DNA from: a virus
Virus record (IMG/VR): IMGVR_UViG_3300009168_000062
Location: 1 to 43,425 of that record
Length of the DNA stretch: 43,425 bases
Strand: one strand, 5' to 3'
The notes under the pieces are model-generated. The model saw only the letters and a list, made by a program, of their open reading frames with translations. It was not told the origin of the DNA and did not search any database. The translations under genes were made by a program, and so were the position numbers. This document shows positions 3,822-43,425 of the stretch, in pieces. Each line of letters starts with the position of its first letter. Position 1 is the stretch's first letter.

Positions 3822-4216
3822 TTGTCACCATCCAGCGCAGAGAGGGCGGCAAACCAAACACAATCTTTTTCATGCGAATCACTCGGGTTATCCGCGCGCA
3901 TATCGTATTCGTGTTTGCAGACAACGCACTCATACAAAAGCGGTCTTTCGCTTTTCAGTACCCACGGGTCACACGCAGCCAACGCCTCCCGCGCCTGGGC
4001 GACTTTACCAGACAGCCGCGCGTTCTCGGCACGCAGTTCTTTAGCCTCGTCACACTCTTCAAGCATCGCTGCAATTTGAGCAAACACCATCAGCATCAGA
4101 GAGTCCCGCCCGCACGTGCATTTCCCCTGCTGTTCGCAAATCCGATCCCCGTGCGGCAACTTGCTCATTCTTCTGGTAATGTCCGTTGTCATTTTGTCGG
4201 TATCAATTTCACTCAT
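3818..4216 (-). CDS. Cys-containing coiled-coil protein, 132 aa
   Basis: Start chosen at ATG 4216 (MSEIDTDKM) behind AAGGAATTGACG. A CEQQGKCTC cluster near residues 28-36, a coiled coil around 55-80 (LEECDEAKELRAENARL), then a C-terminal zinc-finger-like part: YECVVCKHEYD with DSHEKDCVWFAAL. That CxxC...H...C pattern recalls small phage zinc fingers. Function unknown; protein or nucleic-acid binding is likely. Confidence 0.65.
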   Translation of the reverse strand: MSEIDTDKMTTDITRRMSKLPHGDRICEQQGKCTCGRDSLMLMVFAQIAAMLEECDEAKELRAENARLSGKVAQAREALAACDPWVLKSERPLLYECVVCKHEYDMRADNPSDSHEKDCVWFAALSALDGDK

Positions 4217-6722: not shown

Positions 6723-7702
6723 GCTCTCCGCGCCATTCTGACTTGGCTCTTCAGCCAGTCGCCATCTAGGTTATTGGTTAGGATGTAATCGTCAATCTTT
6801 TCCGGCAGTCTCATCACTCTGACCTTGTTCCCGATCTCATGCGCCACACTTACAACATCGGCGTCTGGGTCCAGGCACAAAACCAAATCGTCACAGGCTG
6901 CCAACTGCTTGATAATTGATTCGCTTGGGTTCTTGCTTGGAAGTCCTACAATCTGTATGTTGGGATCTGCAAGTGTGATGTAAGTCACCATTGCCTTGAT
7001 TTCCCCCTCGACTGCAATCACGCGCCCAGAGACGGGCATATCTGGTGAAGCAGGGAACAGCACCGCAGGCAGTCCGCTTTTCTCGGGTCGGTATTTGCCA
7101 ATCTTGTCTGACGCATCGCCTAAAATCCTGTGCTTGACGTTCGACACTTCCCATGTTTCGGGCTCATAGATGGGGATTGTCAGGGTGGGGGATTGGTATT
7201 CCTGTCCTGCCCAAAAGATGTGAGACGGGTCATAGCCCAACTTAATCCAGTCCTGATACCAGCAAGGCACGCCGCGAGTTTCCCACATCACACGGGAGGC
7301 ATCGTCTAGGTTATCGTGATAACGAATCCATGATTGCACTTCGCGCAGTTCTGTAAGCGCCTGCTGTGCCTTCTGGATTTCCGCCTCGAGTCGTTTGGCG
7401 GCGTGTTCGGCATACTCTTGCTTGCGTTGGATTTCTGCCATCGGGTCAACGTCGTGAGCTTTGAGAATATCGCCAAGTGTCTGCTTGCGCCAGTATGCAA
7501 ACCAGTCGAAGCAGTCACCTTTTGCGCCGCATCCAAAACAGTAATATCCTTCCTCATACACATTGAACGATGGGGTTTTGTGATCCTGATGGAACGGGCA
7601 ATTCCAAGCCCATGATTTCCCGCTTCTGTGCTTGGGTTGTCCTAAAGCCTTTTCGACCTCGAGCCTACAATCGTACTGTGATCGCGCGCTCTTGATGTCC
7701 AT
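6719..7702 (-). CDS. DNA primase (CHC2 zinc finger and Toprim)
   Basis: 327 aa. N-terminal zinc-binding CPFHQDHKTPSFNV...YYCFGCGAKGD (about 35-67) is the CHC2-type template-recognition domain of DnaG primases. Toprim motifs follow: VIAVEGEIKAM (about 222-232) with the catalytic Glu, and CLDPDADV (about 275-282) with the Asp pair. It makes RNA primers for phage replication. Start set at ATG 7702 behind GAGGCAAAGGATAGC; the frame is open from a GTG at 7738, but that lies within the structured leader. First gene of the replication operon driven by 7867-7896. Confidence 0.92.
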   Translation of the reverse strand: MDIKSARSQYDCRLEVEKALGQPKHRSGKSWAWNCPFHQDHKTPSFNVYEEGYYCFGCGAKGDCFDWFAYWRKQTLGDILKAHDVDPMAEIQRKQEYAEHAAKRLEAEIQKAQQALTELREVQSWIRYHDNLDDASRVMWETRGVPCWYQDWIKLGYDPSHIFWAGQEYQSPTLTIPIYEPETWEVSNVKHRILGDASDKIGKYRPEKSGLPAVLFPASPDMPVSGRVIAVEGEIKAMVTYITLADPNIQIVGLPSKNPSESIIKQLAACDDLVLCLDPDADVVSVAHEIGNKVRVMRLPEKIDDYILTNNLDGDWLKSQVRMARRA

Positions 7703-12937: not shown

Positions 12938-12950
12938 CGTTTCATCTCCT

Positions 12951-12969
12951 AAACTGTTGTTGATGTACC
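12951..12969. promoter_or_regulatory. Operator arm 1 near the early start site
   Basis: AAACTGTTGTTGATGTACC; its reverse complement recurs at 13001-13019 with 17 of 19 matches. It overlaps the predicted start of the early promoter. Confidence 0.65.
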
Positions 12970-12970
12970 G

Positions 12971-12999
12971 ATAATAAACCCGTTGCCAAAAAATGTCAA
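12971..12999 (-). promoter_or_regulatory. Early promoter (lambda PR-like position)
   Basis: Minus strand: perfect TTGACA (12999-12994), 17-base spacer, TATTAT (12976-12971). Both operator arms flank it directly. Confidence 0.8.
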
Positions 13000-13000
13000 G

Positions 13001-13019
13001 GGTACAGAAACAACAGTTT
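13001..13019. promoter_or_regulatory. Operator arm 2 upstream of the early -35
   Basis: Inverted copy of 12951-12969. Within it GAAACAACAGTTTC (13007-13020) is itself a palindrome (GAAAC/GTTTC), a plausible site for the repressor dimer. Confidence 0.65.
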
Positions 13020-13082
13020 CCCCATCGAAACAGCAACTGGTGTAAACTACCTGAAACCACGGAACACGAAAGGAAATTGATA

Positions 13083-13460
13083 ATGGAGAAGATTGCAAAC
13101 CGCATCTTGGAGGGGATGAAACAAAAAGGATATACCCCCGCGGACCTGTCACGCGCCGCGAAGGTATCAAAGTCCACAATATCGAAATTGCTCAACAACC
13201 AGCCACAAGTCGGCTCGCCGGAGTCGCTCGCCAAGATCGCCCGCGCGCTGGGGATACCGGAGCAGGAATTTTTTATGGACAAGGGGATCATGAAAGACAC
13301 GCCCGAACGCCGCCGTGACGCCGAACTGCTCAGGCTCGAAAAGCTACACAGCCGCCTACCCAAAGAAGATAGGGAGGTACTGTTTGACTTTGCGAATATG
13401 TTATTTTCGAGATCCCAGGGACAAAAAAGGAAACCGATCTATGAACGCGAGCACAGGTAA
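13083..13460 (+). CDS. Xre-family repressor (CI-like)
   Basis: 125 aa. Residues about 1-65 are an HTH_3/Xre domain: RILEGMKQKGYTPADLSRAA, then SKSTISKLLN as the recognition helix, and SLAKIARALGIPEQEFF. The C-terminal half is helical and charged (AELLRLEKLHSRLPKEDREV), with no S24 protease domain, so induction by RecA self-cleavage is not expected. Start set at ATG 13083 behind AAAGGAAA; the frame runs open upstream through the operators. Divergent from the early promoter; it likely maintains repression and autoregulates through 12951-13019. Confidence 0.85.
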   Translation: MEKIANRILEGMKQKGYTPADLSRAAKVSKSTISKLLNNQPQVGSPESLAKIARALGIPEQEFFMDKGIMKDTPERRRDAELLRLEKLHSRLPKEDREVLFDFANMLFSRSQGQKRKPIYEREHR

Positions 13461-13605
13461 TTCATCGCACCGTATTCCGAGTAATTGGGAATTGTACATC
13501 CACGCCCCGCTGTGGCAGGTGATCGCCGTCCGCTTGCTGGCAGAGTTGCTACTGTGGCGGCGGCAGGTTGCGTTGCTGCTGGTGCCGTCCCCCAAGCGGA
13601 CATAA
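13441..13605 (+). CDS. Small protein with hydrophobic helix, 54 aa
   Basis: ATG 13441 lies inside the end of the repressor gene, nine bases after AAGGAAA. Polar N-terminus, then IHAPLWQVIAVRLLAELLLW (about 26-45) and a second hydrophobic patch (QVALLLVP). Likely membrane-associated. It would be expressed with the repressor, as lysogenic-conversion or exclusion proteins are. Confidence 0.5.
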   Translation: MNASTGNSSHRIPSNWELYIHAPLWQVIAVRLLAELLLWRRQVALLLVPSPKRT

Positions 13606-13606
13606 C

Positions 13607-13765
13607 ATGATTTCATTCGCCTACGCATGGGCTTATAAAGCCGCGCTGGAATACGAGGGCACCGAAGAACTCTCAAAGCGATTTCGACCGGAATACTTTT
13701 TTGTGACCGGATTCATTGACTTCGCTATAGTCGCCCTCGTTGCTTGGTTGCTTCGGCGGACATAG
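13607..13765 (+). CDS. Small membrane protein, 52 aa
   Basis: ATG two bases after the previous stop. Soluble aromatic N-terminal part (MISFAYAWAYKAALEYEGTE), then one TM helix (GFIDFAIVALVAWLL, about 34-48) and a basic end. Transcribed with the repressor. Confidence 0.5.
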   Translation: MISFAYAWAYKAALEYEGTEELSKRFRPEYFFVTGFIDFAIVALVAWLLRRT

Positions 13766-14313
13766 CCCCCAGCGTGCCCACAGTCGCCCGGCGCAGGCTG
13801 GGCGGTTTCGCGTGTAGGTACAGAATCAACGCCTTGCCACTTTCTAGCCGTCGCAAAACGAAATTGGCGGCAAAGTTGACCCGCAGGACGTTGCGGCGCG
13901 GAAACGGGGGTTTCTGACCCCCTACAAAAGTACTATTGAAATCCGTTTCAGTATCGAATACAATGTTTCTGTAGGTGTAGCTGGTTCCCCTTGCGAGGTA
14001 CCCCAAGGTGTAGTCGGTTCCCCTGAAGCCTGCCGTGTTGCTGGGGTCGCCGCGCAAGGAAGAGCGACCCAATCAAAACTGAAATCGTGCGTGGGGAAGA
14101 TCCACGAGCAGAAGCGGCAGGCAATGGGCGGCGGCGTGGGCAATCACGCCACGAGAACGGCATCCTAGCGAAGAGCCAACGCTGACCACCAGGAGCCAAC
14201 AGGTAAGAGTGTCAGCCCGCCCACGATCAAAGCCCGCCGTGACCGAGACAACGAAGAAGCACCTAAGACGTGCTAGACGGCACGGTGGGCGACTTTACCA
14301 GAAAGGCGACGCA
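13766..14313 (+). ncRNA. Hairpin-rich region in the repressor operon; candidate structured RNA
   Basis: No well-started gene in ~550 bases. Perfect stems: GGGGGT/ACCCCC (13906-13922); TACT plus GAAA with TTTC plus AGTA (13931-13953) nested inside CCTAC/GTAGG (13921-13975); GGGTCGC/GCGACCC (14044-14070); CGTGG/CCACG (14090-14106); GGCGTG/CACGCC (14133-14150); and CGCCCAC/GTGGGCG (14218-14291) enclosing CGTG/CACG (14238-14284) and AGCAC/GTGCT (14258-14274). Several frames are open but lack starts: one runs 13848-14168 over 106 codons without a usable start, so a decayed gene is the competing reading. Confidence 0.45.
13973..14024. repeat. 33-bp-period direct repeat
   Basis: AGGTGTAG(CT/TC)GGTTCCCCT occurs at 13973-13991 and 14006-14024, 17 of 19 bases identical and exactly 33 bases apart, hence in frame if translated. 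Confidence 0.7.
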
Positions 14314-14754
14314 ATGGAATTATCAGACCTCAAAGTTGGCGATACCGTAGTGATAGACCCGTATACTGGTAGTTTTTATGCTCGCGTCTATCAGTTTGCT
14401 ACCGTTACAAAGGTTGGTTCAAAAAAGATTACAACGGATAAAGGCGAGTTCTCAGCGAGACACGGCGGCACGTGGGGCGGCAGTCCATATCATGGTGCGT
14501 GCATTGAAATAGGCGTGACAATACAGGACGCAGAAGCGCACAACCTCGAAGTGAAAGCCGACGAGCATAAGCGCGGTCTGGTTGCAAAACTCAGTAAAGT
14601 AACGTGGCGAAAATTGCCGCTCGAGACGTTGGAAGCAGTGACGAGCCTTGTTGACAAGCCCGCCGTGACAGCCGAAACAGCGGCGGCGGGCGAGGATAGT
14701 AGCGTTATTAAACAGCGCGGAGGCGCTGAATTGGGAGTTAGAAGGCTCTTATGA
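14314..14754 (+). CDS. Small protein with SH3/KOW-like start, 146 aa
   Basis: ATG 14314 follows GAAAGGCGACGCA; a GTG 105 bases upstream is in frame but lies within the hairpin region. N-terminal beta-rich part (MELSDLKVGDTVVIDPYTGS, then YQFATVTKVGSKKITTDKGE) looks like an SH3/KOW-type barrel, then a helical part (KRGLVAKLSKVTWRKLPLET) and a disordered tail. Possible lysogenic-stage gene; function unknown. Confidence 0.65.
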   Translation: MELSDLKVGDTVVIDPYTGSFYARVYQFATVTKVGSKKITTDKGEFSARHGGTWGGSPYHGACIEIGVTIQDAEAHNLEVKADEHKRGLVAKLSKVTWRKLPLETLEAVTSLVDKPAVTAETAAAGEDSSVIKQRGGAELGVRRLL

Positions 14755-14999
14755 AACTTGAAGTAAACCAAATTGTCTATTATCAAAATCAGCCCGTCCG
14801 CGTTGTTCGTGGTGCGCCCGTTCGCTTTGGTGAAAAGCGGGTCGTTATTGAGCGCCGTGACAGAAGGCGTCTTGCTGTCAAAGTAAGCCTTCTAACAAAG
14901 CGTGCAGTTGACGGGGCTACGGGCTGCGCGTCGTGTGCTCATGCTGATGAATGTCCAGGCGGTTTTGAAGATTGCCGCATATTCACGCCCCGCAACTAA
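14751..14999 (+). CDS. Small basic protein with four Cys, 82 aa
   Basis: ATG overlaps the previous stop (ATGA). N-terminal beta barrel-like part (LEVNQIVYYQNQPVRVVRGA) with a basic run (IERRDRRRLAVKV), then CASCAHADECPGGFEDC, a likely zinc or disulphide cluster. Last gene before the convergent terminator. Confidence 0.65.
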   Translation: MKLEVNQIVYYQNQPVRVVRGAPVRFGEKRVVIERRDRRRLAVKVSLLTKRAVDGATGCASCAHADECPGGFEDCRIFTPRN

Positions 15000-36242: not shown

Positions 36243-36395
36243 CTATTCGCTATCCTTCCACTCATCAAGCCAAAAGCCGCGTTTGATATACGCCTTCTTG
36301 ATTCGCCGCCGGACCTGCTCGATCTTCTTTGCCGACCGCGACCCGAAGCGTTTCATGTACCCTGCCCTGCTGTTCTGCTTGCAGACCGATGACAT
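36243..36395 (-). CDS. Small basic protein, 50 aa
   Basis: ATG 36395 after AGAAAGGATAGCGA. Strongly basic (MKRFGSRSAKKIEQVRRRIK inside), likely nucleic-acid binding. Stop at 36243. No family recognised. Confidence 0.65.
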   Translation of the reverse strand: MSSVCKQNSRAGYMKRFGSRSAKKIEQVRRRIKKAYIKRGFWLDEWKDSE

Positions 36396-36470
36396 TCGCT
36401 ATCCTTTCTCTGGTAGACTTCTGGTAAAGTCCACCGACACTTATACGCAGTATCACTACTGGTATCGCTA

Positions 36471-36499
36471 TTGCCATAATTCAGAGACTGAATTATAAT
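36471..36499 (+). promoter_or_regulatory. Sigma-70 promoter on the plus strand
   Basis: TTGCCA (36471-36476), 17-base spacer, TATAAT (36494-36499), running opposite to every gene within 20 kb. Start site near 36506. Confidence 0.75.
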
Positions 36500-36505
36500 T
36501 ACCTC

Positions 36506-36662
36506 AGCAGCCCGCACCTGCTAGTTGCAACAGCCAGGGCGCAACCGGGATCGTGGTGCCGCCAGCACCAGCCCCAAGCGCAGCGCCCGCTCTCGCGCTT
36601 CCCTCGTGTAAGCGAGTAGCGCAAAATGTCCACCGTGCAGACCACCCCAAAAGGGTGGTTTT
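36506..36662 (+). ncRNA. Candidate structured ~157-nt plus-strand RNA
   Basis: Fills the gap between minus-strand genes. Hairpins: GTTGC/GCAAC (36524-36545), TGGTGC/GCACCA (36554-36570), AAGCGC/GCGCTT enclosing AGCG/CGCT (36576-36600), CTCG/CGAG (36603-36616), then an intrinsic terminator ACCACCC/GGGTGGT (36641-36659) followed by TTTTGCTT. No protein frame of note. A complete promoter-RNA-terminator unit; function unknown. The 36396-36470 part of the gap holds nothing else I can identify. Confidence 0.6.
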
Positions 36663-36670
36663 GCTTATCG

Positions 36671-36979
36671 TCACACTTCCAGCCGTTGCTTGATGTCTAC
36701 CAGAGCCGCAACCACAGACGCCAACCGCCCGCGGATATTGTTGATATGGTTGTACACATCGGAATGAGGCTGTTGGACGTTGGGGACAGGGTTGTCTTTT
36801 TGCGGATATTCTGGACCCATCACAGGCACAAGCCGCGCCACAAGTCCCTGCAAGCTTTGTTCAAGCTCTTCCAGCACTTTATCCATTTCTTTGAGCGCTA
36901 CCTGCACCTCTGGCGTTTTCTGCGCCTCGGTCTGCGTGCCAAATTCCGACCTGTAAATGTCATTAGTTGTGTAGTTCAT
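36671..36979 (-). CDS. Helical protein, 102 aa
   Basis: ATG 36979 after AGAAAGGAAATT. Long amphipathic helices (EVQVALKEMDKVLEELEQSL and IRGRLASVVAALVDIKQRL) with a Pro-rich middle (MGPEYPQKDNPVPNVQQPHS). Coiled-coil assembly likely. Unknown family; its stop lies just past the plus-strand terminator. Confidence 0.7.
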   Translation of the reverse strand: MNYTTNDIYRSEFGTQTEAQKTPEVQVALKEMDKVLEELEQSLQGLVARLVPVMGPEYPQKDNPVPNVQQPHSDVYNHINNIRGRLASVVAALVDIKQRLEV

Positions 36980-43146: not shown

Positions 43147-43425
43147 CTATCGGCATCCGAGCCCCGCATTGTCTGAACTGCATCCCCGCCAGAAGTGTCC
43201 AGAACTTCCAACGATGTAGCAGTAGTTACCGTCACATTCCGCCGCTATCTCGCTGCCTCTGTTCAGCCAGTAGCCAGTATTCGCGCCAGCTGCGTTGCGT
43301 ATCCAGACGTTGCCAGTCACGGTCACACGCGGGGACGCCGTTGGCGTGGTGGTGATATGCGTCACTGTGTTCACAGCAGCGGTAGGCTTTACCGGAAGCG
43401 TGGAACAGGCGAGGGACGCGAGCAG
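43147..43425 (-). CDS. Junction-spanning exported SH3-like protein, main part
   Basis: From the right edge the minus strand reads LLASLACSTLPVKPTAAV and on to a stop at 43147. Joined to the 12 codons at 36-1 (the first and last nine bases are the same, CTG CTC GCG on this strand) it gives about 101 aa: a signal peptide ending SLAC, an imperfect lipobox, then a small SH3-like domain (VTVTGNVWIRNAAGANTGYW, then GSEIAAECDGNYCYIV and GHFWRGC). Such exported proteins may modify or bind the host envelope in lysogeny or infection. Confidence 0.8.
   Translation of the reverse strand: MLASLACSTLPVKPTAAVNTVTHITTTPTASPRVTVTGNVWIRNAAGANTGYWLNRGSEIAAECDGNYCYIVGSSGHFWRGCSSDNAGLGCR

Follow-up and report, generated by a model that had tools for sequence, protein, structure and literature searches.

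The window, that is the whole 43,425-base record analysed here, contains a gap of 275 nt (36396-36670) between two genes that both run leftward (Table 1). Gene calls around this gap were taken from a codon-usage gene model. ATG 36395 is the most likely start of the downstream gene; a 70-aa minus-strand ORF beginning at ATG 36477 lacks a ribosome site such as GAAAGGAT, is unlikely to be a gene and was considered the poorer choice. Since the downstream gene likely starts at 36395, the claim of an earlier note on this DNA that a plus-strand RNA unit exactly fills the gap is inexact: starting from the 50-aa gene, 75 nt form the leader of this gene and the plus-strand unit follows, with about 8 nt between the end of its terminator and the upstream gene's stop at 36671. 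Minus-strand proteins within the gap (36504-36674 and 36353-36517) were rejected as low-complexity or for lack of a ribosome site. The small hairpin in the leader is one copy of a dispersed motif, GGNNGACTTTACCAGAA, which occurs on both strands at 3997, 4171, 9802, 9942, 14287, 36419 and 43381 (7 matches versus 0.8 expected).

Table 1 Features in and around the gap between the two leftward genes
Feature	Position	Strand	Basis or remark
50-aa downstream gene with GAAAGGAT ahead of its ATG at 36395	36243-36395	-	codon-usage gene model
Small hairpin GGTGGACTT..AAGTCTACC	36412-36435	-	just 5' of the ribosome site of the 50-aa gene
Sigma70-type promoter TTGCCA-17-TATAAT	36471-36499	+	11/12 consensus match
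Perfect inverted repeat ATAATTCAG-AGA-CTGAATTAT	36476-36496	strand-neutral	end of -35 into -10
Predicted noncoding RNA, about 157 nt, 64% G+C (window 52%)	36506-36662	+	start inferred 7 nt after -10
Hairpin GCGCT/AGCGC plus CUCGU/GCGAG, GUAA closing loop	36595-36622	+	folding
Intrinsic terminator ACCACCC-CAAAA-GGGTGGT, then TTTGCTT	36638-36666	+	hairpin search, folding
102-aa upstream gene in the leftward string, matching phrog_30094 weakly	36671-36979	-	gene model, profile match

The near-consensus promoter described in the earlier note was borne out, with the -35 element TTGCCA at 36471-36476, a spacer of 17 bases and the -10 element TATAAT at 36494-36499 on the plus strand. Sites matching the consensus at 11/12 or better numbered five in the window versus 0.37 expected from dinucleotide shuffles; three of these five were entirely noncoding and one was 87% noncoding. 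As noncoding DNA makes up only 11% of the window, this concentration suggests that consensus promoters of this kind are genuine here.

The promoter spacer is spanned by a perfect 9-3-9 inverted repeat that contains most of TATAAT, and the fitting -35 lies almost entirely outside it. This repeat is present in a single copy in the window. Perfect repeats with 9-base arms were found three times in the window versus 1.8 times in shuffles, so that the repeat is not unusual as such, and it is its placement that suggests a putative operator. The palindrome also gives TATAAT on the minus strand, but a minus-strand promoter within the same gap was rejected as no fitting -35 was seen by eye. Three matches to the inverted repeat elsewhere in viral contigs were AT-rich, showed no promoter or RNA similarity and were judged to be chance. 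Xer/dif-type sites consist of two 11-bp arms around a centre of 6-8 bp. Against what we take to be the dif consensus, the dif-like arms recognised by eye in the sequence of the region are 13 bp apart, and an attachment site of this type was rejected as an explanation of the inverted repeat for its wrong spacing. Likewise, a replication origin at the unit was rejected because the skew does not change at the site.

At the other end of the unit, the hairpin GACCACCC-CAAAA-GGGTGGTTTTGCTT (-13.7 kcal/mol) is followed by a modest, short U tail, which confirms the intrinsic terminator of the earlier note; written as AGACCACCCCAAAAGGGTGGTTT then TTGCTTAT, it starts 139 bases past the -10. The output of a consensus scanner did not include this terminator. 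To judge the two elements jointly, promoters of at least 10/12 with a terminator within 300 nt were searched for on both strands of the whole window, with 100 shuffled windows as control. The unit at 36471-36662 (+) was the only one in the window on either strand. In the shuffles the mean was 0.01 per window, a value that whole-window shuffling makes somewhat lower than the true chance because local composition is ignored, and none of the 100 shuffles produced a unit with an 11/12 promoter. At the sequence level the complete plus-strand unit that the earlier note had proposed is thus well supported, and we consider it probable that the unit is real and that a plus-strand RNA is made from it.

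The predicted RNA has a folding energy of -65.5 kcal/mol with a z of -2.65, which is only moderately special, and yields the four hairpins expected from the earlier description: the first stem is weak, the second is branched, the third bears a GUAA loop and the last is the terminator. A slightly larger stretch of the complementary strand folds as strongly (z -2.72), and the fold thus supports structure but not direction. Only one frame of at least 20 codons lies entirely inside the unit, a 28-codon TTG frame for which no ribosome site was seen by eye. Two others begin inside and extend beyond the terminator: one of 46 aa opens with GTG, and one of 124 aa opens with the ATG at 36626 and is antisense to a real gene that matches a PHROG. 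The unit therefore holds no convincing protein frame, in agreement with the earlier note. No tRNA or tmRNA was found in it, and the predicted RNA matched no family of the Rfam 15 covariance models above gathering, nor any at relaxed thresholds.

For the genomic setting, the ends of the record (1-9 and 43417-43425) overlap by 9 bases, CGCGAGCAG, and when joined they give an intact 101-aa lipoprotein gene; the record is therefore very likely a complete circular map of about 43.4 kb. The ends were rejected as evidence for cos sites, since they join through the lipoprotein gene with this overlap. Leftward from 12999, the gene order on the circle is primase, replication initiation protein and helicase, then across the joined ends endolysin, exonuclease, the gap, terminase, portal, head and tail, to 15066. 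In the gene model, plus-strand genes are confined to 13083-14999, which makes the earlier statement that all genes for 20 kb on either side run opposite to the unit about right. From this order it follows that a single transcription direction reaches the gap.

A C1-type repressor gene (13083-13460, +) faces the leftward promoter at 12999-12971; on this account the phage looks temperate and probably is. Neither a tyrosine nor a serine integrase was found in the phage genome, which leaves lysogeny itself uncertain. The leftward early promoter is flanked by a long inverted pair, AAACTGTTGTT / AACAACAGTTT (12941-13022), whose arms are probably the operators of the repressor. The terminase is 60% identical to one from a Chloroflexi assembly, and, as a weak hint, the host may belong to the phylum Chloroflexi.

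Two further regions drew attention. Directly before the primase gene, 7896-7700 (-) comprises a promoter that matches the consensus perfectly (TTGACA-18-TATAAT) and a leader in which three perfectly complementary pairs, 13, 10 and 11 bp long, interlock as A B C A' B' C'. Since A' (CCTTTGCCT) is also able to pair with AGGCAAAGG, the ribosome site at 7716-7708, A would compete with the ribosome site for A', and the leader looks like a translational RNA switch. The second region, 13936-14313 (+), lies in a 548-base gap beside the repressor. With its repeated GGTGTAG..GGTTCCCCT motif and a promoter of 10/12 (TTGAAA-17-TACAAT), it possibly encodes another noncoding RNA.

We then compared the unit with relatives. 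A near-identical contig of 18 kb starts at the same base as the record and carries the unit with 100% identity over 321 bases. As the two differ at only about 5 positions in 14 kb, this identity is uninformative on selection. It was the one copy, besides this record, among the viral contigs, phage records and relatives searched. Relatives of the exonuclease exist, but neither these nor the terminase relatives contained DNA similar to the unit, and phage records showed no DNA similarity to the unit region. In 396 genomes of the class of the Chloroflexi assembly only short matches appeared, with E-values too weak for 396 genomes; RNA pieces in viral contigs beyond the near-identical one were chance 18-mers, located in repeats or present as single short matches. 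No searched relative other than the near-identical contig keeps the unit, and the comparison thus gives no sign of selection on it. The neighbouring 640-aa and 116-aa proteins were likewise found among viral contigs only in the near-identical one, the 116-aa protein also matching Pseudomonas phage KPP25 and its kin weakly, at 31%.

Near the same genes, several terminase relatives nevertheless have promoter-terminator units, as does the present phage. In Rctr41k, a phage that stems from a DAMO/AAA enrichment culture, a promoter (TTGACA-17-TAAATT) directly follows the same exonuclease gene and is paired with a strong terminator, the two lying at 7283-7403 and along the gene direction. The units of Rctr41k and most others run with the genes and share no sequence with the present one, which runs against them; they recall leader transcripts before late genes, the opposite of what is seen here.

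The geometry of the locus offers a reading that was not among the three roles named in the earlier note. Any message that reads through leftward would include a perfect complement, about 157 nt long, of the predicted RNA, so that pairing in cis would be possible whenever both RNAs are made. We tentatively favour a phage cis-antisense RNA gene directed against the leftward polycistronic message and active mainly when the operon is silent. In favour of this are the status of the unit as the sole promoter-terminator unit of the window, far above chance, its position in a true noncoding gap and opposite to all surrounding genes, the lack of a plausible protein, tRNA, tmRNA or Rfam family, the temperate-looking phage with one transcription direction reaching the site, and the precedents STnc6030, aQ and OOP described below. 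The reading is weakened by the RNA facing intergenic message rather than a coding start, by the short U tail, and by the lack of conservation and of an integrase. As the pairing lies between genes, its effect may be slight if a cut made there leaves the genes on either side undisturbed.

A role in trans, through pairing with host or other phage messages during lysogeny or infection, is doubtful. The unit is complete and independent, having a promoter and a terminator to itself and a body that is GC-rich and structured, as would suit such an RNA, but the short U tail and missing conservation speak against it and no anti-ribosome-site motif was found among those tried. Target prediction, which the earlier note had suggested, was run on 72 phage start regions and gave a best duplex of -48.1, no better than the mean for shuffled RNA (-46.9). 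With duplexes at the level of shuffles and no Rfam match, positive evidence for the trans-acting role that the earlier note had listed did not emerge, nor did any for a decoy.

It is unlikely that rightward transcription itself is the functional element, acting as a roadblock that opposes weak leftward read-through and keeps the late genes off until leftward transcription is strong. The opposed orientation amid a leftward string, the strong promoter and a product without recognisable content are consistent with this; however, a roadblock needs no structured and terminated product of 157 nt. Read on the minus strand, the terminator hairpin lacks a U tail and is therefore no terminator for polymerase transcribing the leftward operon. 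Of the previously suggested guard against read-through, opposition by the promoter can thus be entertained, whereas termination of the operon cannot.

Improbable, finally, is the absence of any transcription unit, i.e. an operator-like palindrome that creates a -10 by chance beside an unrelated hairpin and serves leftward control, DNA packaging or nothing: the overlap of TATAAT with the repeat, the equally strong folding of both strands and the missing conservation would fit, but the rarity of a joint promoter and terminator in shuffles, the location of the genome's other strong promoter matches in gaps, a fitting -35 almost entirely outside the repeat and the lack of a skew turn marking an origin argue otherwise.

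For the cis-antisense RNA, transcription, timing, pairing and effect may be envisaged as follows. Host RNA polymerase would initiate near 36506 and terminate near 36662, releasing a stable structured RNA, while the leftward operon (endolysin, exonuclease, terminase, portal, head, tail) would give a long message containing its exact complement. While the operon is silent, for instance in a lysogen, the small RNA alone would be produced and would accumulate; leaky or superinfecting leftward message would be paired and then cut or blocked, and opposed polymerases would collide head-on. Once the operon is fully on, leftward traffic would overrun the small promoter. A repressor bound to the inverted repeat in the promoter spacer may turn the RNA off. 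A more specific version appears decidedly improbable, namely a lineage-specific immunity RNA that is switched by a protein at the promoter repeat and destroys the late message of superinfecting sister phages by intergenic pairing.

Phage cis-antisense RNAs such as aQ, OOP and STnc6030 form a functional class and not a sequence family. By its sequence, the present unit shares with them an own promoter opposite the target transcript, but it does not share the perfect overlap with a coding or start region of the target, as 36506-36662 is entirely intergenic; at most it would work like these RNAs, and it is not a proven member. The nearest tested case, STnc6030 of the Salmonella prophage BTP1, is antisense to BTP1 structural genes and blocks BTP1 superinfection but not spontaneous induction of BTP1 (PMC7067206). 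Like it, the present RNA runs against late structural genes, has no convincing protein frame and occurs in a probably temperate setting; yet STnc6030 measures about 500-786 nt, overlaps coding sequence and was tested for function (PMC7067206), whereas the RNA predicted here has about 157 nt and lies in a gap. The lambda aQ RNA (220 nt, promoter paQ) overlaps the Q regulator gene and acts as antisense in cis (PMC12197685). It likewise has a promoter of its own, set against the operon leading to the late genes, although no Q-like gene was identified under the present unit. Lambda OOP (77 nt), antisense to the cII gene (PMC12197685), is similar as a short RNA that runs against the operon direction and has a promoter and a terminator to itself, but no sequence relation to it was found by Rfam.

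The unit is a candidate for a known type of phage control, in which antisense RNA dampens the phage's own late messages, without a recognisable relative. If transcribed, it would represent an orphan antisense RNA in a phage without a close isolated relative, and it would suggest that RNA guards over late operons reach beyond enterobacterial prophages and can occupy the gap between genes.
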